Positions 1-16,043 of a DNA stretch of 21,206 bases are shown here, piece after piece. Every line of letters starts with the position of its first letter. Position 1 is the first letter of the stretch. This stretch comes from a virus. The DNA lies in the IMG/VR virus record IMGVR_UViG_3300031623_000769, positions 1 to 21,206 of that record; one strand, written 5' to 3'. The position numbers were made by a program, and so were the translations under genes. Under the pieces are notes generated by a model. That model ran no database searches, was not told where the DNA came from, and saw only the letters and a program-made list of their open reading frames with translations.

Positions 1-27
1 ATAATTGCATTAATGATAAAGCCATAA

Positions 28-885
28 TTAAAACTCCTGTATCGATTCAGTCATATCTTTAAGTCGATGCTTAATAAAATAATTGAGCATTCTATCGCGA
101 CCCAAATATTGGTCACTTTCATACTTTGTTCTTATATTTATCTCGATTTTATCTGGGATACAACCGAGATCTATTAAAGTCTCATTGCGTTTAAAGTTTC
201 TTAAAATTTCTCCTTCAAAAGCCTTTTCCGGTACTATATTTAGCCAATCCAGGATCCTCTTCTTCGACATTGGCTTTTGTCTTAGTCCTTCTACCAAACA
301 TGCGTCATTTGAAAGAATATTAGGTATACCGTCGCTTCTATCTCCATTTACTATTAAAGCGCGCAATTGTCCAGCCGGATCATCTTCTTTAATAAATTTT
401 TTAGTTCGAGGCGACCATTGAAAAACATTAGGATATTTTTGCAATTGGATAAAATCTTTATCAGAAGAAACTATCAATATATTATAATCTCTATGGGAAT
501 ATTCCTTACAAATAACCCCGATAATATCATCTGCTTCACATCCTTCTAAATTAACTACCCTGTAAGGCATATTTTCTGCTATCTCTTCTCGAATATTATC
601 GAGTATTTTAAATAACGCTTGCCAATCTACACCTTGTTTATTTTCTTCTCTTGCTTTCTTTCTATTAGCCTTATAAAATGGATAAATTTCTTTGCGCCAA
701 TTTTTTCTGCTATCACAACAAAAAACAATATCTTTTCCGAACTTGGTACCAAATTTATTCTTGATCATTTTAATATTATGGAGAACCATATGCCTCATCG
801 TGGCATCCTCTTTACCTGGTTCAAATTGTTTACGGAATGCCATAAAATTAGCAATTATCATCTGGTTATAATCAATTAGTATCAT
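28..885 (-). CDS. rnh: T4-type RNase H, 5'-3' exonuclease (FEN-like)
   Basis: This 285-aa protein has the layout of the 5'-3' exonuclease/flap nuclease family, and T4 RNase H (about 305 aa) is the closest type. Candidate metal-binding acids are in the expected order: D5 in MILIDYN, D58 in CCDSRKNWR followed by the basic YKANRK helix, E117/D119/D120 in GCEADDIIG, D142/D144 in SSDKDF, and D182/D185 in NGDRSDGIP, where the helix-hairpin region begins. In T4 the enzyme removes RNA primers and short DNA from lagging-strand 5' ends. It is the last gene of the minus-strand operon in this window, one base after the 255-aa gene, so it is probably co-transcribed with the sugar genes upstream. The ATG start sits exactly at the first beta strand. 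Identity is inferred from motifs; the family is well supported and the T4 subtype is likely. Confidence 0.9.
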   Translation of the reverse strand: MILIDYNQMIIANFMAFRKQFEPGKEDATMRHMVLHNIKMIKNKFGTKFGKDIVFCCDSRKNWRKEIYPFYKANRKKAREENKQGVDWQALFKILDNIREEIAENMPYRVVNLEGCEADDIIGVICKEYSHRDYNILIVSSDKDFIQLQKYPNVFQWSPRTKKFIKEDDPAGQLRALIVNGDRSDGIPNILSNDACLVEGLRQKPMSKKRILDWLNIVPEKAFEGEILRNFKRNETLIDLGCIPDKIEINIRTKYESDQYLGRDRMLNYFIKHRLKDMTESIQEF

Positions 886-886
886 A

Positions 887-1654
887 TTATTTTTTTAGTT
901 TTTTAATTTTAATCTTCTTTCCCAGTTTTACTTTCTTTTCTTTTTTTGTTGTGATTATTATTTCACATTCTTCTATCATCATATCATAAAATTTAATTAA
1001 TCTATTTTGTAAGGGTTTATTTAAATGACTGTAGGCTTCTGCAAAATCTACATCACCATCTTTGGCTAATTTTATTTCACTAGCCATTTCTACAATTTCA
1101 GATTTTAAATGTTTAGCTACAGGTCTTGAAATCTTATTATGTGTAATAAATTGTTTAAAATTATATTTCTTTTTAAAATTTTCTTCAAGTTGTTCGTCAA
1201 CAATATCCTCTATATCATATTTTAATTTTTTTGCAGCTTCTCGAATTCTTTTCTGAATATCTGGTTTTACTTTATCTTTTGTTTCTACTGCTACCTTACG
1301 ATGTTCGGCAATCTCTTCTATCTTTTTTAATTTTTGAATAAAAAGATCTTCATATTCTTCTGGTAAACTCTTTAATCCTCTTAATTTCATTCGCGCAATA
1401 TAACCAACATGATTTCCAACCTCGATTAAATCTGTGATTTTAAGTTTCCCTGGAGATTTACTTTTTACTTTATTTTTTTTATAATATTCTTGAACAAACT
1501 CCATACTCTCTTTAAAATCAAAAAATTTATAATACCATCTAAAGGCTTCATGAATTTCAGATTTTAATTTATCGAGAGGCAAACTATCCCAATCAATAGG
1601 ATCCGGTTCGTCGCCCATATATTTTGCGTTAATACTTCTTTTCGAAAAAGCCAT
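887..1654 (-). CDS. conserved-looking phage protein of unknown function, Lys-rich C-terminus
   Basis: This 255-aa protein is not recognised. The N-terminus is acidic and aromatic (PDPIDWDSLP, then FRWYYKFFDF). The middle, about residues 60-210, is predicted to be long charged helices, and the last 20 residues are almost entirely Lys with Ile/Leu, a tail that could bind nucleic acid. The ATG follows the TAA of the SIS gene directly, in the same reading frame, with a good Shine-Dalgarno (GAAGG, 7 bases upstream). That makes a real start more likely than an extension of the SIS protein. Its position between sugar genes and RNase H does not settle its role. The basic tail and the replication neighbour suggest a DNA-associated function, but this is inference only. 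Confidence 0.8.
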   Translation of the reverse strand: MAFSKRSINAKYMGDEPDPIDWDSLPLDKLKSEIHEAFRWYYKFFDFKESMEFVQEYYKKNKVKSKSPGKLKITDLIEVGNHVGYIARMKLRGLKSLPEEYEDLFIQKLKKIEEIAEHRKVAVETKDKVKPDIQKRIREAAKKLKYDIEDIVDEQLEENFKKKYNFKQFITHNKISRPVAKHLKSEIVEMASEIKLAKDGDVDFAEAYSHLNKPLQNRLIKFYDMMIEECEIIITTKKEKKVKLGKKIKIKKLKK

Positions 1655-2344
1655 TTAGCTACCTTCGTACTCTCCAAGTGATACTTTATGTAATTCTTTT
1701 ATCTCGCACATAATATAATGCAAGATAATAGACATGATGCCTTCACATTTTTCCATATGATTTAAATTAATATGTATATAATTTAAGAGTTTGTCTTTCA
1801 AAATTCCCCCACCATATCCTAAAATACCGAAAGTTTCCATTCCGTTTGAATTGGCCCAGTCAACGGCTTCTATAAGATTTTTACTATTACCACTACCACT
1901 AAGAACTAATAACCCATCGCCTCTATTAGCATAAGTTACAAGTTGATGCTTAAATATATTATCATAAGAATCGTCGTTAGATGTAGCAGTAATGAAGCCG
2001 ATATCATTGCAAAGAGATATAGCTTTGATTCTAGGTCTTGAAAGTCCATTTTCAATTGTCCCTTTAGTTAGATCTTGTGCGAAATGATTGGAATTACATG
2101 CACTTCCTCCATTTCCACATATAAAAAATTGTTTTTCGTTTATATATATGTTCCGAATAGCTTTTAATAACTCATCGAGTTGACCTTCTGAAACTAAATG
2201 CAGAGAACTACTTATAGAATTAACATGTGATCTCCATCCGGATCGTTCCTTTAATAATTCTATTTCTGAATTTACTTTAATATCTGGCATATTATTTGAT
2301 GAAATATTATCTGCCCATTTTACATGTATATTTTTATTTTTCAT
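1655..2344 (-). CDS. gmhA: SIS-domain phosphoheptose isomerase-like protein (GmhA family)
   Basis: This 229-aa protein has a single SIS fold of the GmhA type, which converts sedoheptulose 7-phosphate to D-glycero-D-manno-heptose 7-phosphate. Two sugar-phosphate loops are clear: GNGGSACNSNHFAQDL (residues 77-92) and SGSGNSKN (149-156). It is longer than typical GmhA (about 190 aa) because of a roughly 35-residue N-terminal extension. By hand alignment from memory, the C-terminal helix that normally carries E-x-x-H-x-x-x-x-H reads EGIMSIILH (201-209). The first histidine, usually catalytic, appears to be Met204, and the glutamate in the FAEEL motif is Asp91. Activity may therefore be altered. 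The gene overlaps the upstream GHMP kinase by 11 bp, which supports a joint pathway. Family assignment is confident; substrate is not. Confidence 0.82.
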   Translation of the reverse strand: MKNKNIHVKWADNISSNNMPDIKVNSEIELLKERSGWRSHVNSISSSLHLVSEGQLDELLKAIRNIYINEKQFFICGNGGSACNSNHFAQDLTKGTIENGLSRPRIKAISLCNDIGFITATSNDDSYDNIFKHQLVTYANRGDGLLVLSGSGNSKNLIEAVDWANSNGMETFGILGYGGGILKDKLLNYIHINLNHMEKCEGIMSIILHYIMCEIKELHKVSLGEYEGS

Positions 2345-3296
2345 TATAAAACACTATTCTTGTTCCCTGATTATCGAATCCAACATCAAATGTATCTAAA
2401 GTTCTATTTTTCATATGTATCTCTTTAGCATGATCTGTCATGAAAAGTATATAGCCACCTCCGCCAGCTCCACATATTTTAGATCCTGTTACCCAAGAAG
2501 CAGAATTTTGCATAATGGCTTTAATTGCATCATTAGTAATTCCTTTGGCCAGAGTGTTTTTAATTTGCATGGATTCATTCATGAGTATTCCAAAATCATC
2601 GTACTGTCTGAGATCATAATAATCTAAAGCTTCGGTACAAATGTCATATATTTTATTATATTTTTTTATATTTTTTTCAATAGAATTTATCTGAGAAATA
2701 AGAATTGAAGATGATTGTCTATGCTGGCCAGTATTAACCAGAACAAACTTTCTTTCAAACTCTGCATCATATTGTAATTTTTTAATTTTTACACTGCCAT
2801 CTTTAAAAAACCGAAAATGGTTAAAACCGCCGTAACTAACCGCAAATTGATCTTGCTTCCCAATCGGCTTATCTAAGATTTCAAGCTCAATATGACATGC
2901 TAGATGCGCTATATCGGCCTGATTCATTGGAGCCCCGATCCAAGTACTTATAGCATTTATTAGCCCGACCAGAATACTTGAAGAAGAAGCTAAGCCAGAT
3001 CCCTCAGAAGGAATATCTGCTAATGTTGTAATTTCGAGACCGGATTTTACATCAAAATATCTAAGAACCTCTCGAATATATTCATGTTCAATTTCATCAA
3101 CATTATCGACAGTTTCTTTTTTAGTATAATTACAAACAAATTGGTCTCGATATAATCTATTTAATATAACATAGGTAGATTTATCGATAGCAGCATTTAT
3201 GACTTGACCGCCATCAGGTGCCGTAATATAATATTCTGGAATATCGGTTCCGCCCCCGAAAAAACTAATCCGTAAGGGTGTTTGACAAACTAACAA
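2334..3296 (-). CDS. hddA: GHMP-family sugar kinase, D-glycero-D-manno-heptose 7-phosphate kinase-like
   Basis: This 320-aa GHMP kinase phosphorylates a sugar phosphate using ATP. It has PLRISFFGGGTD at 7-18, the ATP-binding motif PSEGSGLASSSS at 96-107, GKQDQF at 146-151 and the third GHMP motif CGAGGGGYILF at 275-285. The GGGTD N-terminus and GKQDQ are typical of HddA, which makes heptose 1,7-bisphosphate for GDP-heptose, but L-fucose kinase-like relatives share much of this. The start is TTG: an in-frame TGA lies only four codons upstream and no ATG lies between, while the first strand (VCQTPLRIS) follows at once. A purine-rich AGAAGAG lies just upstream. The gene overlaps the nucleotidyltransferase before it by 32 bp and the SIS isomerase after it by 11 bp, so all three are translationally linked. 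Confidence 0.85.
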   Translation of the reverse strand: MLVCQTPLRISFFGGGTDIPEYYITAPDGGQVINAAIDKSTYVILNRLYRDQFVCNYTKKETVDNVDEIEHEYIREVLRYFDVKSGLEITTLADIPSEGSGLASSSSILVGLINAISTWIGAPMNQADIAHLACHIELEILDKPIGKQDQFAVSYGGFNHFRFFKDGSVKIKKLQYDAEFERKFVLVNTGQHRQSSSILISQINSIEKNIKKYNKIYDICTEALDYYDLRQYDDFGILMNESMQIKNTLAKGITNDAIKAIMQNSASWVTGSKICGAGGGGYILFMTDHAKEIHMKNRTLDTFDVGFDNQGTRIVFYNEK

Positions 3297-3684
3297 TTCT
3301 CTTCTTCAGTTCAGTTGATGAATAATGATGAAATCTTTTACAATAATAGAGTTCAATATTTTTTAAGATACATGTATTATACCCCGTTATGAATTTATTG
3401 TCACGGGAATAATCTTCACCTAAAAATCTAATATTAATTTCTATTGTTTTTAATATATTTTTAAGATCTTTTTCTGATTCATAAGGAATAATTTCATCAA
3501 CATATTTACATCCTTTTAATTGTATGAATCGTTCAAAGACTGACTGTACTAAATCTTTTTTGTGAGCGGGACTAGTGTGAAGACCAACGATTAAATAATC
3601 ACAATTTTTCCTCGCTTCTTCTAACATTACAATATGCCCTGCATGTAATAAATCAAAAGCGGATGCTGCAAATCCTTTTTTCAT
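3265..3684 (-). CDS. HxGH cytidylyltransferase-like nucleotidyltransferase (HldE C-domain/TagD type)
   Basis: This 139-aa protein is a minimal nucleotidyltransferase of the cytidylyltransferase superfamily, the size of TagD or of the stand-alone C-terminal domain of HldE. HAGH at 14-17 is the nucleotide-binding HxGH motif, RFLGEDYS at 87-94 resembles the conserved strand after the substrate site, and YSSTELKKR at 121-129 matches the ISSTxxK/R phosphate-binding motif. The family transfers CMP or AMP from CTP or ATP to a sugar or alditol phosphate. Next to gmhA- and hddA-like genes, the likely product is a nucleotide-activated heptose, but the sequence does not fix which nucleotide or sugar is used. 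It overlaps the glycosyltransferase gene by 4 bp (ATGA). Confidence 0.85.
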   Translation of the reverse strand: MKKGFAASAFDLLHAGHIVMLEEARKNCDYLIVGLHTSPAHKKDLVQSVFERFIQLKGCKYVDEIIPYESEKDLKNILKTIEINIRFLGEDYSRDNKFITGYNTCILKNIELYYCKRFHHYSSTELKKRIVSLSNTLTD

Positions 3685-4700
3685 AAGACCGTTGATATTC
3701 TTTCGGCATCTGATTGTTCTTCGAGTTCATCTTCAATATCCATTAATTCAAACATCTCTATCCATTTAGGAGCTCTATAATCCCAACTATAATATTTGTC
3801 AGCATGTTTTTTGGCCCGGTCTATAATATCTTGTGTTTCATCATCCCAATATGTATCTAATAATTTATCTATTTCATCAGCAAATCTATAACAATGTTCT
3901 ATTTCATCTTTAATATAAGGATACATAAATGCATGATCAGAACAAGTCTCTGGTAACGCTCCTAAACTATTTGTAAGCATTAATGTTCTGGAAGACATTG
4001 CTTCCATAGCAGTTCTACAAGAAGTTTCTTCCCATATACATGGATAAGCCCAAATATGCATATCTTTCCATTCTTCTCTTAAAGGCCTTCCTTTAACAAT
4101 TTTATGTAAGGTCATATTAGGATTTTTTTCAATATGATCAAATAATTCTCCGTATGGTTGATCGTTTTCTTTCCACCCATAAATTTGAAAACTTGAATAT
4201 ACATGTAAATGCCAATCATCTCTTTCGAGTTCATGTAAAGCATTACATAATACATGTAAACCTCTTTGAGGTGTAGAAGCATAAATTAAATTTATTTTAC
4301 CTTCTCTAGGTTTTTCATAATGTTCAAATGGAAATATTGCTGTTTTTTGAACTTCACAACGATCCATTGGTAAATCATATTTTTCTAGAAAAGTATGCAT
4401 TTGCCAATAACTCGAAAAGATTAATTTCTCAAATTCTTTTGCACCATCTTTATTTTTTAAAAAATCATGTCCGCCACTTCCATCTTTTGCTAAATCATGA
4501 AACCACCAAATTCTGGGCAAAATAGTTTGAATATTTTCTGGATATAATCTTGATATTATCCATTGATAATCTGTTTTATATTTTTTAGGTAAATGCGACC
4601 ATAATTCTAAGGTTGTTAATTCTGTTCCCCCAAAAGAATTCTTGGCCATATTATTTTCTTTTCTTTGAGGTATTGTTTTATCTTTATAAATGTCTTTCAT
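3681..4700 (-). CDS. GT-B fold glycosyltransferase, GT4-like
   Basis: This 339-aa retaining-type glycosyltransferase probably moves a sugar from a nucleotide-sugar donor. FGGTEL near residue 23 is the N-terminal glycine-rich loop. YASTPQRGL at 140-148 starts the donor-binding domain, and EETSCRTAMEAM at 224-235 is the E-x7-E-type donor site of GT4 enzymes. ALPET follows at about 248. The protein is shorter than usual GT4 enzymes (about 370-400 aa) because the first Rossmann domain is compact. The ATG overlaps the upstream stop as ATGA and has no clear Shine-Dalgarno, so it probably relies on coupling; Met18 is an alternative. There is no signal peptide or membrane segment, so the enzyme should be cytoplasmic. 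The acceptor is unknown. Confidence 0.85.
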   Translation of the reverse strand: MKDIYKDKTIPQRKENNMAKNSFGGTELTTLELWSHLPKKYKTDYQWIISRLYPENIQTILPRIWWFHDLAKDGSGGHDFLKNKDGAKEFEKLIFSSYWQMHTFLEKYDLPMDRCEVQKTAIFPFEHYEKPREGKINLIYASTPQRGLHVLCNALHELERDDWHLHVYSSFQIYGWKENDQPYGELFDHIEKNPNMTLHKIVKGRPLREEWKDMHIWAYPCIWEETSCRTAMEAMSSRTLMLTNSLGALPETCSDHAFMYPYIKDEIEHCYRFADEIDKLLDTYWDDETQDIIDRAKKHADKYYSWDYRAPKWIEMFELMDIEDELEEQSDAERISTVL

Positions 4701-5560
4701 ACGTTGATCTTGAATGTTCTAGGACTGTTTGAAATATGATCTATTAATTCTTTGTGAAAATTTATATTTGCTTCTCTACATTCTTCTAAAGAACTTTTAT
4801 ATTGTCTTTGTTCTTTATCTTGAATAGTTTTCCACCAATCAGTTGTCGGGCAATATAAAGGTTTATGTTTTAAACCGTAAAATTTAGAACACCAAGGAAA
4901 AGCTACAACAACCTTTCCCAAAAGAGTTGCCCAATAAGCACCGTGATAAGAATTTGTAACAACAATATCTCCACTTGCGATAAATTCTATTGTTTCTTCA
5001 AAATTGATTTCATTGTTTACTTTATGAGGATAATCCCAAGTTTCTGGAGGCATACCATGGACAACATTCATTGGAAGCGAAGCATGAGTAAAAAATACAA
5101 TATCATATTTGGTTTCATATTCTTTATCAAAAGCTTCATGCATACAACTCGCACAGGGAACCCATCTTGCAGCTGGTATCGATTGATATATATGTGGATG
5201 ATGATCACGTATGCCCAATAAATCAAATGATCTTATATAACCCGGATACGTTATATTCATTGGCGGTATACATTGTACTTGTTCATCTAAACAAATATAC
5301 ATATGTTCGCCTAATCCCCATCCATATATTCTATAATTAGAATTTTTTTGATGTCTCAGAACGTGAGACATTGGTCTCATTTGACCTATGAGTCCTCCAC
5401 CACCGTAAATGACGTTTTCATGGGGTGGTGCATAATCATATTCTAATTGAAAGATATCTTTTTGATTTCCCGGTAAATCAAAATACTTTGTGGGGGTACT
5501 GTACGAATCACCTATGTTAGTTTCATCTGTCCTAAATATATTGGTAAACTGTAATTCCAT
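4697..5560 (-). CDS. polysaccharide pyruvyl transferase-family protein
   Basis: This 287-aa protein resembles the polysaccharide pyruvyl transferase family (CsaB/WcaK type), which adds pyruvate ketals from phosphoenolpyruvate to glycans. Visible motifs in order are TNIGDS near 14-19, VIYGGGGLIG at 50-59, GIRD at 116-119 and TNSYHGAYWATLLGK at 202-216. The last corresponds to the family's SxxHG(x)2xA(x)3G donor-binding loop. It is somewhat short for the family (usually 300-400 aa). It is the first gene of the glycan/replication operon and starts 14 bp from the divergent plus-strand gene, so its promoter must lie inside that gene or upstream; I could not identify it. Some members transfer other groups, so pyruvyl transfer is a family-based inference. 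Confidence 0.8.
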   Translation of the reverse strand: MELQFTNIFRTDETNIGDSYSTPTKYFDLPGNQKDIFQLEYDYAPPHENVIYGGGGLIGQMRPMSHVLRHQKNSNYRIYGWGLGEHMYICLDEQVQCIPPMNITYPGYIRSFDLLGIRDHHPHIYQSIPAARWVPCASCMHEAFDKEYETKYDIVFFTHASLPMNVVHGMPPETWDYPHKVNNEINFEETIEFIASGDIVVTNSYHGAYWATLLGKVVVAFPWCSKFYGLKHKPLYCPTTDWWKTIQDKEQRQYKSSLEECREANINFHKELIDHISNSPRTFKINV

Positions 5561-5574
5561 AGAAAGGTATATTC

Positions 5575-5961
5575 ATGCAAGATTTAAATGATTTTGGTTT
5601 TAGTACTGTGAGTGAACAAGAATTTACTTCGGCTGCTAAAGAACCTGAAGAGAAAGTAGTTACTGCTGCGGTAGAAAAAGCCAAAGCTGGACAAATAAAA
5701 GAAGTTGAGGGAACTGTAAATAAAATTTGGAGTTTGCTGGACTATCATTATGAAGATATTGATAAGCATAAAGAAAAATTAAATAAAGAATTCAGTAGGT
5801 GTATGAAAGAAGTAGAAGATTTAATTGTACCTCTGCTAAATAATTTAGCAAAATCTTCCACTAATGAATACATATATTGGCCTGGTAGGCGGGAAATTTT
5901 AGAAACACAGATTGAGAAAATTACTGCACATACTCGAGATGTAAATATATTCACTGAGTAA
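5575..5961 (+). CDS. small helical phage protein of unknown function, only plus-strand gene
   Basis: This 128-aa protein is not recognised. The N-terminus is short, polar and probably flexible (MQDLNDFGFSTVSEQEF), residues 20-40 are Ala/Lys/Glu-rich, and residues 45-95 and 108-122 look like amphipathic helices (WSLLDYHYEDIDKHKEKL and similar). A WPGRRE motif lies near residue 103. The ATG has a good Shine-Dalgarno, AGAAAGG, 8 bases upstream. A CCTAAATA sequence about 37 bases upstream resembles the T4-type late promoter TATAAATA, but weakly. The gene diverges from the pyruvyltransferase gene (14-bp gap) and its last 11 bases overlap the end of the RuvC-like gene on the other strand. Its isolation on the plus strand suggests separate timing of expression. 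Confidence 0.8.
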   Translation: MQDLNDFGFSTVSEQEFTSAAKEPEEKVVTAAVEKAKAGQIKEVEGTVNKIWSLLDYHYEDIDKHKEKLNKEFSRCMKEVEDLIVPLLNNLAKSSTNEYIYWPGRREILETQIEKITAHTRDVNIFTE

Positions 5962-6490
5962 CTCCGTATTTACAAAGATAGTAAGAATCAACAATATCGG
6001 TTGCAGGGTTGCCATTTTCTTGAACTAATTCAAAATTATCCGGCTCTGCCTTCCATGATTCTAGCATAGCTTCTTTATTAGAATTTCCCTTACCTGTTGC
6101 GAACTTCTTAATAACAGTTGGAGGAACTGTTTCATAGCGGAAACCATTCTGTTTTAATTTTAATTTCAAAATACCAACATTTTCCGCGATGTTAAAAACT
6201 CTGCCGGTAGACCCATAAGAATAATCTTCTAGTATAACTTTCTCAACTCTACCATTATGCCAACGTAATGCTTCTATGGTCCAATCAGCTAAAAAAATAT
6301 ACTTATCTATTAATTTTAAATCTTTTGGTAACTTATAACAATTTACATTTTGAAGGGTGGCCCACCGAGGCCTCCACTTATCCAAAGCAAAAAAACTAAA
6401 ATTACAATCAATAGGATTAATTGTTCCATCTTTTTTAAATATACAAATACATGGGCTGGTTGTAGAATAATCTATTCCTGCGCAAATCAA
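5951..6490 (-). CDS. ruvC: RuvC-like Holliday junction resolvase
   Basis: This 179-aa RNase H-fold nuclease is of the RuvC type. The four-acid active site is complete: D7 in GIDYSTTSP, E88 in ILEDYSYG, and D165 and D168 in TDIVDSYYL. The RuvC-typical stretch KKFATGKGNSNKEAM lies at 128-142. The family cuts four-way DNA junctions; in a T4-like phage it could take the role of endonuclease VII in resolving recombination intermediates before packaging. The start is TTG, directly after the TAA of the HAD gene and in the same frame, with AGGA six bases upstream; the first beta strand begins at once. It is the last gene of the short operon that starts at 7170 and converges with the plus-strand gene. 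Confidence 0.88.
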   Translation of the reverse strand: MICAGIDYSTTSPCICIFKKDGTINPIDCNFSFFALDKWRPRWATLQNVNCYKLPKDLKLIDKYIFLADWTIEALRWHNGRVEKVILEDYSYGSTGRVFNIAENVGILKLKLKQNGFRYETVPPTVIKKFATGKGNSNKEAMLESWKAEPDNFELVQENGNPATDIVDSYYLCKYGVTQ

Positions 6491-6955
6491 TTAAAATCCT
6501 AACTGTTGTAATTCTCTTATGCTATCTTTTGCAGATGTATGTAATATCGCAATGCCACCTTTGGATTTCCATTCAGCTACGTTTGATTCAGAATCATCGA
6601 TTAAAATATTCGGTGATAAATTTTCTTCAACAGCATAATATTGTTTTTCTCTCTGAAAAACACAATGAATCCTTACGGGGAATAATTTATAATGTTTAAA
6701 AATCCATTGCATTTTTTGTATGCGACATTCTGGAAAACCAGAGTCGTTAGGGATCGCGGTCAAAACATGCCAATCAAATTGCCCGGAAATATGATTTATT
6801 AATTCATCTGCATCAGGCATTTTGGGAAGAGAAAAGAAAAAATCTTCGGGGAGAAGTTCCCATCTGTTTGCCCATTCTTTTTTAGTATTAAATTTGTCAA
6901 TGATGGGTTTATCAAAATCTGATAAAACACCATCCATATCAATAAAAACTTTCAT
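6491..6955 (-). CDS. HAD phosphatase, 5'(3')-deoxyribonucleotidase-like
   Basis: This 154-aa HAD-superfamily protein is close to the small bacterial and phage 5'(3')-deoxyribonucleotidases, which dephosphorylate dNMPs. Motif I is FIDMDGVLSDF with nucleophile D6 and acid D8. Motif II is the Thr in HVLTAIP at 63-69, Lys81 or Lys87 may be the motif III lysine, and motif IV is ILIDDSESNVAEW at 117-129. The length and the small cap fit NT5C-type enzymes. Alongside NrdJ and ThyX it fits nucleotide pool control. A heptose bisphosphate phosphatase (GmhB) role is less likely, because the GmhB Zn-binding Cys/His loop is not seen. It lies two bases after the 70-aa gene and ends at the TAA that precedes the RuvC start. 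Confidence 0.8.
   Translation of the reverse strand: MKVFIDMDGVLSDFDKPIIDKFNTKKEWANRWELLPEDFFFSLPKMPDADELINHISGQFDWHVLTAIPNDSGFPECRIQKMQWIFKHYKLFPVRIHCVFQREKQYYAVEENLSPNILIDDSESNVAEWKSKGGIAILHTSAKDSIRELQQLGF
6497..6500 (-). promoter_or_regulatory. Shine-Dalgarno that sets the TTG start of the RuvC-like gene
   Basis: AGGA on the minus strand lies six bases before the TTG at 6488-6490. It supports initiation at this rare start codon, which is the first possible codon after the in-frame TAA of the HAD gene. Confidence 0.55.
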
Positions 6956-6957
6956 AA

Positions 6958-7170
6958 TTAATCGTATATAAAATTCATTTCGCCTTCAAGGCCCACTTTT
7001 TCTTTATATGCTTTATCAAGAATATCTTCTAACCAGAGTTTGCCTGTAAAAGCAGGCGCATTCTCAATATCTTTCCACAACTCTTGGATTGCGGGAACAC
7101 CTAATGATTCAGTATGTTTTTCAAGAACCTTAACACACTCATCAACATATTTTTCAAATGTTGTTTTCAT
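6958..7170 (-). CDS. small acidic helical protein of unknown function
   Basis: This 70-aa protein is not recognised. It is acidic and mainly helical: residues 1-30 form an amphipathic helix (TFEKYVDECVKVLEKH), there is a probable turn around the Pro/Gly residues, and a second helix follows (WLEDILDKAYKEKVG). There is no membrane segment and no known motif. Its ATG follows a strong sigma-70-like promoter so closely that the predicted mRNA would begin only a few bases before the start codon. AGAGGG lies 4 bases upstream of the ATG. As the first gene of the HAD/RuvC operon it may be expressed early. Confidence 0.7.
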   Translation of the reverse strand: MKTTFEKYVDECVKVLEKHTESLGVPAIQELWKDIENAPAFTGKLWLEDILDKAYKEKVGLEGEMNFIYD

Positions 7171-7180
7171 AATACCCTCT

Positions 7181-7209
7181 ATTATACATCATTAATAAGT
7201 AAATTTCAA
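7181..7209 (-). promoter_or_regulatory. sigma-70-like promoter for the 70-aa/HAD/RuvC operon
   Basis: On the minus strand TTGAAA (7204-7209) is followed by exactly 17 bases and then TATAAT (7181-7186), which is 11 of 12 matches to the host sigma-70 consensus with ideal spacing. It lies in the 49-bp gap after nrdJ. The ATG at 7168-7170 is only 10 bases after the -10 box, so the transcript would start about 3-5 bases before the ATG and be nearly leaderless. The start site itself is inferred, not seen. Confidence 0.7.
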
Positions 7210-15299: not shown

Positions 15300-16043
15300 T
15301 TATAACAACTTTTTAAATTCGCGTATAGAAATATTATCTATATTAGAAATCTCTTTATTAAAACATTGTTCTTCCTGAACATGTATAAAATCAACTTCAG
15401 GAAAATAATCAGTAAACATTACTTCAAAATTTTGAATCCACCCTGCTGCTTTCACCGGTAATGCATAACTAGGGGCATAGCAGTCTGTGTCTTTATATAT
15501 ATTGTTTACTTTTCCATTATTTATGTTAAAATCAAAACCCATTAAATAAACCTTGTCGGGTTTTTCATTCTCACAACACAACCAGGTTGCAAGAGGTCCT
15601 GAATCTAACAAAGGTATATGTTTAAAATCATCTACTACGTTTATCTTATCTTCTTCTGTTATCCATGTGAACCAATAGCAAGGATTTGTTTGTAAATCCA
15701 TTGTATGTGTATCATCGTGAAAAACTCTACTAATTTCTTGGCCGTAATGAGCGAATTTAAAATCTGTTTTTTTATTCTCTATTACTTTTATTCCGGGCTC
15801 TAACGTTGACCGAAAAACAGGATACATATCAGGATCCAGTAACTGAAAATTCCTAAACCAACATTGATTTAATTTAGGATATTGTGATTCCACCAACTCA
15901 TGTAACATTTTATTATCAATACATATAAGATTGGTTGGTGTCCAATCCCTATACATCGCATTGCATCCATATGTTGTATGATCTAATAACAAATTAAGGT
16001 CAAAATCTTTACGACTTTCACCATTCCCAATCACTATAAACAT
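15300..16043 (-). CDS. phage protein with N-terminal GNGES motif, possible nucleotide-binding or sugar-related fold
   Basis: This 247-aa protein is of uncertain function. It opens with a beta strand and glycine-rich loop, FIVIGNGESRKDFDLN, then YGCNAMYRDW and LICIDNKMLHEL, the pattern of Rossmann-like proteins of the MptE/DUF115 or sialyltransferase-like kind. Later parts include DKVYLMGFDFN (about 172-182). Such proteins may bind nucleotide sugars or act on glycans, but no catalytic set is clear. The gene lies between the beta-sandwich protein and the 969-aa protein in the structural block, with no obvious Shine-Dalgarno. Context suggests a virion-linked or modification role. Confidence 0.65.
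   Translation of the reverse strand: MFIVIGNGESRKDFDLNLLLDHTTYGCNAMYRDWTPTNLICIDNKMLHELVESQYPKLNQCWFRNFQLLDPDMYPVFRSTLEPGIKVIENKKTDFKFAHYGQEISRVFHDDTHTMDLQTNPCYWFTWITEEDKINVVDDFKHIPLLDSGPLATWLCCENEKPDKVYLMGFDFNINNGKVNNIYKDTDCYAPSYALPVKAAGWIQNFEVMFTDYFPEVDFIHVQEEQCFNKEISNIDNISIREFKKLL

Follow-up and report, generated by a model that had tools for sequence, protein, structure and literature searches.

A conserved five-gene operon of a T4-like phage, probably for an activated heptose, and a candidate for its missing phosphatase

Which activated sugar would a phage make with five sugar genes of its own, and how would the pathway be completed if one of the expected enzymes is missing from the set? 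The question is raised by a virus record of 21,206 bases (IMG/VR record IMGVR_UViG_3300031623_000769, positions 1 to 21,206; hereafter the window), in which five open reading frames (ORFs) run along the minus strand from 5560 to 1655. An earlier note, made from the sequence alone, had described them as a heptose-type cassette without a visible GmhB phosphatase, and we confirmed the five ORFs at the coordinates it gave. With modest confidence, we read the locus as part of a T4-like marine phage whose translationally coupled operon makes and transfers a nucleotide-activated heptose; on the evidence of its sequence, the operon itself is probably a heptose operon. The most useful outcome of the analysis lies outside the operon coordinates and consists of a candidate for the missing phosphatase, the small HAD family phrog_1238, and of an apparent error in the name given to that family. 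The five genes abut or overlap one another and are, in order of the operon:

4697–5560, minus strand: polysaccharide-pyruvyltransferase-like protein, 287 amino acids, operon gene 1 (PS_pyruv_trans PF04230, 29.6 bits, cut-off 25.3; the match is confined to the C-terminal part of the profile)
3681–4700, minus strand: GT4-type glycosyltransferase, 339 amino acids (Glyco_trans_1_4, 28.4 bits, cut-off 27; phrog_2170, 5.4e-26)
3265–3684, minus strand: small HxGH nucleotidyltransferase, 139 amino acids (CTP_transf_like, 52.6 bits, cut-off 21; phrog_7878, 2.2e-29)
2334–3296, minus strand: GHMP kinase, HddA-like, 320 amino acids, TTG start (GHMP_kinases_N, 55.1 bits; cut-off 22.3)
1655–2344, minus strand: SIS-domain sugar-phosphate isomerase, GmhA-like, 229 amino acids (SIS_2, 52.5 bits; curated cut-off 27)

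The kinase must start at the TTG at 3296, because there is an in-frame TGA three codons further upstream, and its gene therefore overlaps that of the nucleotidyltransferase by 32 nucleotides (nt). Related contigs were gathered with the kinase as query, two of the collections being the best 80 of 427 and the best 80 of 212 relatives, and the 43 distinct contigs fall into two clades by kinase identity, at ~77–100% (23 contigs) and ~53–60% (20 contigs). The five genes occur in the same order in 30 of these contigs, in two of which (L141 and L142) the first gene is cut by the contig end, and the other 13 end inside the set or within ~240 bases of it. The 32-nt overlap was found in 37 of the 37 relatives that have both genes and the isomerase gene, and the first two genes overlap by 4 nt in 30 of 30 loci; the junctions of glycosyltransferase with nucleotidyltransferase and of kinase with isomerase are variable, with inserts in some relatives. 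Pairwise ratios of nonsynonymous to synonymous substitution (Nei-Gojobori) for the five genes range from 0.095 to 0.240 against three relatives of the first clade and from 0.193 to 0.335 against the second-clade relative L140, so that the genes are under purifying selection.

In the pathway that we infer, the SIS isomerase would convert sedoheptulose 7-phosphate of the host to heptose 7-phosphate, which the GHMP kinase would turn into heptose 1,7-bisphosphate. The 7-phosphate would be removed by a phosphatase encoded outside the operon, either the phrog_1238 HAD protein found elsewhere in several relatives or the GmhB of the host, and the HxGH nucleotidyltransferase would activate the 1-phosphate with cytidine triphosphate (CTP) or adenosine triphosphate. 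The GT4 enzyme would transfer the sugar to an acceptor, the pyruvyltransferase-like protein may cap it, and the purpose would most simply be an altered host surface.

The kinase passes the GHMP domain test and has the conserved blocks PLRIS, GSGLASSSS, GKQDQ and GAGGGG. Its best matches among solved structures (3K85, 4N3O, 4USM and 4USK) bear the names heptose kinase or putative sugar kinase; 4USK and 4USM are presumably the heptokinase WcbL, the paper on which names 3K85 and 4N3O as relatives (PMC4691232; this and all further papers are cited from the available parts of their texts). The best solved-structure matches of the isomerase, which passes the SIS_2 cut-off, are phosphoheptose isomerases (down to 4.5e-20). 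We considered 79 loci of bacteria and archaea that contain a related kinase (L045–L123): 62 of them have the same isomerase type and 25 an ORF with the GmhB motif. GmhB models matched three of the three such ORFs tested, two of them above the NF006506 cut-off, and of the 28 genomes from these loci that were searched with TIGR00213, 27 gave a match at E ≤ 1e-5, once above its cut-off; many of the 79 loci are short contigs, so that absences among them mean little. The heptose pathway proposed in the earlier note thus gains from the structure matches and from the bacterial loci, and loses at the equivalog cut-offs and at two metal ligands, to which we return below.

The nucleotidyltransferase, with motifs HAGH and RFHHYSST, was placed in a tree of 36 rows, which was midpoint-rooted for drawing only and for which fusion proteins were trimmed to the nucleotidyltransferase domain. 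The 11 clade nucleotidyltransferases form one group (100/99) within an 18-row phage group (98/94) that includes the TagD of Caulobacter phage Cr30, the protein of L192 and two fused domains described below, and also takes in Vibrio, Roseobacter and S-H68 proteins. Next to the phage group (94/84) are TagD, a GCT-like protein and L183, and the HldE proteins lie across a weaker split (93/76). By this placement the enzyme is a member of a phage group that stands closer to TagD than to HldE, which corrects the suggestion that such a small HxGH enzyme would lead to a CDP- or ADP-type product. Neither the TagD profile TIGR01518 (58.4 bits, cut-off 165.4) nor rfaE_dom_II TIGR02199 (48.4 bits, cut-off 181.5) reached its cut-off. 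The pairing of an HxGH enzyme with HddA had been called unusual, a view that does not hold: it recurs in phages in several layouts (L156, L183, L192, and Synechococcus phage SynMITS9220M01 and its kin). In the tree, L156 and L183 have nucleotidyltransferases of types other than the window's, and L192 has the window's type beside HddA and SIS. An arginine five residues before SST is common to the window nucleotidyltransferase and TagD and presumably binds CTP, so that CTP as the nucleotide used is a lead only. The published promiscuity motif STTR5, (F/L)XXGRSTT (PMC11573728), is absent from the window enzyme, whose aligned stretch is RFHHYSST, with Y at the R5 position; promiscuity is described as not strictly dependent on the motif (PMC11461863).

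For the last steps, GT4 homologues lie directly upstream of HddA–SIS in other phages (e.g. L162, L175, L182 and, for Cr30, L020), a recurrence that links the transferase with the sugar. For the pyruvyltransferase-like protein, which may be a pyruvyl cap enzyme, 50,697 phage records gave no match at E ≤ 1e-3. A search of viral contigs with it returned 37 loci, all 69–100% identical, and its structure model, built from 15 close sequences, has a predicted local distance difference test score of 35.8 and is too poor to use.

That no GmhB is visible holds for the 21.2-kb record, to which the statement on this genome is limited, by a search with the GmhB-containing family TIGR01656. The earlier note had proposed to look for gmhB beyond this stretch, and, when the search was widened to relatives, TIGR01656 was found in 0 of 8 records and PF13242, a second GmhB-containing family, in 0 of 16, including those of 150, 167 and 177 kb; these records may be incomplete. 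Both families are also silent on two HAD proteins that are present, so the negatives concern GmhB-like HADs only. In Campylobacter jejuni, GmhB is encoded outside the capsule cluster (PMC10680097), and an operon without gmhB is therefore not strange by itself.

A candidate for the missing phosphatase was found outside the window, in phrog_1238. In SynMITS9220M01, HddA and GmhA are followed by a protein that is annotated as hypothetical and consists of an HAD-like part and, after it, a CTP_transf_like domain; the HAD part matches phrog_1238 at 1.4e-25, its Pfam HAD match being below cut-off. We surveyed 41 loci (L019, L194 and L309–L347), found, L194 apart, with this protein as query, and the HAD–nucleotidyltransferase fusion is present in 37 of them, namely SynMITS9220M01 and 36 viral contigs. 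Within the stretch read, SIS accompanies the fusion in 35 loci and HddA in 29; the fusion loci are mostly close kin drawn with one query and are therefore not independent. The expression used for HAD motif I missed six fusion loci, and the five of these that were inspected read DLDET there. The two fused nucleotidyltransferase domains placed in the tree, those of SynMITS9220M01 and L194, fall in the window's phage group (98/94). As a free protein, an HAD of the same family is encoded in four of 13 records (G005, G004 and G007 of the first clade and G040 of the second), and a fifth, SynMITS9220M01, has it in the fused form. In G007, whose cassette proteins are 100% identical to the window's, the HAD gene lies ~47 kb from the kinase gene. 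In an HAD tree of 26 rows, the HADs of the relatives group with those of cyanophage sugar clusters (87/97, under the 95 mark), apart from the HADs of Acinetobacter, Klebsiella and Proteus phages. In the cyanophages P-SSM2, S-CAM3, P-TIM68 and S-SSM7, the HAD is clustered with a kinase annotated or matched as a carbohydrate kinase, which is PfkB in both cases tested, and three of these four clusters also hold an annotated nucleotidyltransferase. Together, domain fusion and gene neighbourhoods provide a concrete and cheaply testable candidate for the viral phosphatase step. As a separate observation, a cupin annotated as cysteine dioxygenase lies beside the HAD in P-SSM2 (L353:5411–5767), and likewise in S-CAM3, P-TIM68 and S-SSM7; from a weak match to D-lyxose isomerase (E 0.0027, below cut-off), the P-SSM2 cupin could be a sugar isomerase.

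In PHROGs, phrog_1238 carries the label "phosphoheptose isomerase", which is apparently wrong, and the three phage SIS isomerases that were scanned are assigned to phrog_14703, "unknown function". All 11 phage proteins named phosphoheptose isomerase and taken from our HAD searches have HAD motif I and no GNGG[ST]; being drawn from HAD matches, they are no survey of all proteins of that name, and the SIS motif is present in two more, those of SynMITS9220M01 and Cr30. Examples of phrog_1238 proteins that bear the name include, with others:

L042, 4447–4755: named phosphoheptose isomerase, HAD-like
L353, 5086–5430: named phosphoheptose isomerase, HAD-like
L358, 3001–3360: named phosphoheptose isomerase, HAD-like

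If the phosphatase candidate is right, the phage "phosphoheptose isomerase" label names the wrong reaction, and counts of viral sugar genes would be affected; gmhA has served as a marker gene for viruses in one marine study (PMC9238414). A literature search by titles and abstract openings, which covered few subscription journals, found no earlier report of the wrong name or of the HAD–nucleotidyltransferase fusion. We put forward tentatively, as a joint claim somewhat short of probable, that phages replace GmhB with a phrog_1238 HAD, free or fused, so that some viruses would encode a complete nucleoside diphosphate (NDP)-heptose pathway, and that the phage "phosphoheptose isomerases" named through phrog_1238 would be these phosphatases.

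Several results weigh against a heptose pathway completed in this way. The kinase fails the HddA equivalog NF049969, with 119.1 bits against a cut-off of 600; two bacterial homologues score 147.5 and 167.3 bits on this model. The isomerase fails the gmhA equivalog TIGR00441 (94.3 bits, cut-off 209.45), as do four isomerases taken from bacterial loci that have an HddA-like kinase (95.5–119.1 bits). Its predicted metal site, by alignment H87, D91, E201 and H209, reads H-D-E-H against the canonical H-E-Q-H, so that two of the four GmhA ligands are changed. In Burkholderia pseudomallei GmhA, the zinc ligands H64, E68, Q175 and H183 are called completely conserved, and mutation of E68 or Q175 lowers activity (PMC5705639); Escherichia coli GmhA uses E65 and H180 (PMC5387315). 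Of 104 aligned rows, 103 have the H-D-E-H quartet and the other is truncated; one row repeats the window. The rows were drawn from loci with an HddA-like kinase, so this result concerns isomerases near such kinases. M204, three residues after E201, was considered as a lost catalytic histidine and dropped, since the two papers on GmhA put the ligand eight residues after the Q/E position, where the window has H209, which is kept. From its gene context the isomerase may work like GmhA, but it fails two tests of GmhA membership. Relatives of the nucleotidyltransferase in Vibrio phage phiKT1024, CRP-6 and S-H68 (46–53% identical) have no annotated kinase or isomerase beside them, and these three records gave no HddA match (E ≤ 1e-5) while 12 other records did; the nucleotidyltransferase group may therefore serve another substrate. 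As for the phosphatase candidate, the HAD was not found in eight of the 13 records (those of 150, 151 and 167 kb, four smaller ones and Cr30), of which the 150-kb and 167-kb relatives do carry the cassette. The fused HADs fall outside the group of the relatives' free HADs in the HAD tree, the HAD adjoins thymidylate kinase in Klebsiella phage Marfa and Proteus phage PM2, and in the window's relatives HAD motif IV is CD, not DD.

It is rather unlikely, in our judgement, that the operon makes another activated sugar or sugar alcohol, with the SIS enzyme acting on another ketose phosphate and a CDP-linked non-heptose as product. The divergent metal site would fit this, as would the occurrence of the nucleotidyltransferase group without adjoining kinase or isomerase and its standing nearer glycerol-3-phosphate cytidylyltransferase than rfaE (58.4 against 48.4 bits; 94/84 in the tree), and other CDP units, CDP-6-fructose and CDP-6-glucitol, are reported from C. 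jejuni capsules, made by enzymes of other Pfam families (PMC10918830). However, the H-D-E-H isomerase is the type that in bacteria lies near HddA-like kinases and at times near GmhB, and the kinase has its nearest solved relatives among proteins named heptose or putative sugar kinases. A partial pathway, in which the phage boosts or diverts the heptose pool of a host that supplies GmhB, is doubtful but has several results behind it: the GmhB-containing families were found in 0 of 8 (TIGR01656) and 0 of 16 (PF13242) records of relatives, the 150-kb and 167-kb relatives gave no HAD, and GmhB of C. jejuni lies outside its capsule cluster (PMC10680097). What speaks for a phage-borne step instead is the HAD–nucleotidyltransferase fusion in phages whose kinase and isomerase are of the same types; the fusion suggests that this step is supplied by the phages. 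We consider it very improbable that this enzyme is the product of the NT5C-family HAD gene at 6491–6955, ~0.9 kb upstream of the operon. That gene is present in eight of the eight relatives searched and in 27 of the 30 complete five-gene loci, but it matches 5'-deoxyribonucleotidases and sits with ribonucleotide reductase and thymidylate synthase genes, and homologues at 32–40% identity occur in 16 contigs (L255–L270) with no HddA match in the stretch read. NT5C was rejected as main phosphatase candidate for its nucleotidase matches and for these homologues in contigs where no HddA was seen.

Read as a heptose operon, the locus can be set beside known systems. Its nucleotidyltransferase belongs to the same Pfam superfamily as the C-terminal domain of HldE in the ADP-heptose pathway (GmhA, HldE, GmhB, HldD). 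It differs from that pathway in having a GHMP kinase, whereas the HldE kinase domain is PfkB-type, in a nucleotidyltransferase outside the HldE group, and in an operon without the HldD epimerase. With the GDP-D-glycero-D-manno-heptose pathway of the C. jejuni capsule (GmhA, HddA, GmhB, HddC) it shares the SIS isomerase and the HddA-type GHMP 1-kinase, and the phosphatase gene, which in C. jejuni is outside the cluster, is likewise not in the window operon (PMC10680097). Unlike there, an HxGH nucleotidyltransferase replaces the guanylyltransferase, the metal site is divergent, and GmhB was not found in the relatives searched. Virus-encoded NDP-heptose enzymes are known (Tang et al., Science 2024, cited through PMC11573728 and PMC11461863), and a commentary describes the phosphatase as absent in viruses (PMC11461863). 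The published enzymes and the window are alike in isomerase, kinase, nucleotidyltransferase and the lack of a phosphatase of known kind (PMC11461863); they differ in that the window lacks the STTR5 arginine, and the fusion is not mentioned in the available parts of the two papers (PMC11573728, PMC11461863). Virus sugar pathways of this kind are thus known, and the five-gene set and the phosphatase candidate are new details. In SynMITS9220M01, whose authors named heptose-related genes (PMC7378029), HddA and GmhA lie side by side with the nucleotidyltransferase adjoining, as in the window; unlike in the window, the nucleotidyltransferase is HAD-fused, an HldD-like epimerase comes next, and no pyruvyltransferase is annotated in the 12.9 kb read. 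As to purpose, the authors of a study of pelagimyophages read their rfaE and glycosyltransferase genes as a likely change of the host surface against coinfection (PMC7029224).

Phage Cr30 resembles the window in its consecutive glycosyltransferase, HddA and GmhA genes on a single strand; it differs in its TagD-like nucleotidyltransferase, which is found at the opposite end of the linear record, beyond RNase H. T4-like genomes are circularly permuted, and if this genome is permuted, TagD lies ~6 kb from the kinase. Glycosyltransferase–HddA–GmhA at one end (L020) and RNase H and TagD at the other (L043) are all on the same strand, and joining the two ends into a permuted genome would give an arrangement similar to that of the window, where RNase H comes after the cassette.

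The phage of the window is T4-like, as the gene surroundings and a capsid match indicate: RNase H (28–885), RuvC-like and NT5C genes flank the operon, ribonucleotide reductase, thymidylate synthase and primase genes are also around it, and the 177-kb relative has a major capsid protein that matches Gp23. This capsid protein is 67.5–70.1% identical to those of the 15 best-listed of 2,505 matching phage records, from several hosts; judging from its T4-like marine kin, the phage is presumably marine. The gene psbA was found in 0 of 5 records and csgG in 0 of 9. The operon promoter was not located by a scan of positions 1–7200, which gave no excess of sites over chance (42 against a shuffle mean of 40.7), and the T4 late-promoter consensus TATAAATA has 1 match in the window against 4.4 expected. 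A plus-strand ORF at 5575–5961, 95–100% identical in first-clade relatives, starts 14 nt from operon gene 1, so that a promoter would have little space between the two.

Some relatives have small ORFs within the set. An ORF of 87 amino acids, by eye presumably MazG-like, lies between the GT4 and nucleotidyltransferase genes in L012 (6541–6804), L139 and L141; over this stretch the DNA of L012 and that of L139, which belong to different clades, are 96.5% identical, and so it was probably exchanged recently. A hydrophobic ORF of 28 codons lies between kinase and isomerase genes in L007 (10953–11039), and the same 75-nt gap occurs in two more of the 37 loci. One of the 23 first-clade contigs, L044 (PBYV01000081.1), is listed as part of an Acidimicrobiaceae metagenome-assembled genome; with its phage gene order and 79% kinase identity it is probably a mis-binned phage contig. 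Elsewhere in the window, the protein at 15300–16043 belongs to phrog_30607, begins MFIVIGNGES and is, to our eye, reminiscent of DUF115-type proteins. The 177-kb relative has a block of ORFs (L030–L032, G005:10488–42312), several of which have cysteine motifs suggestive of radical-SAM proteins.

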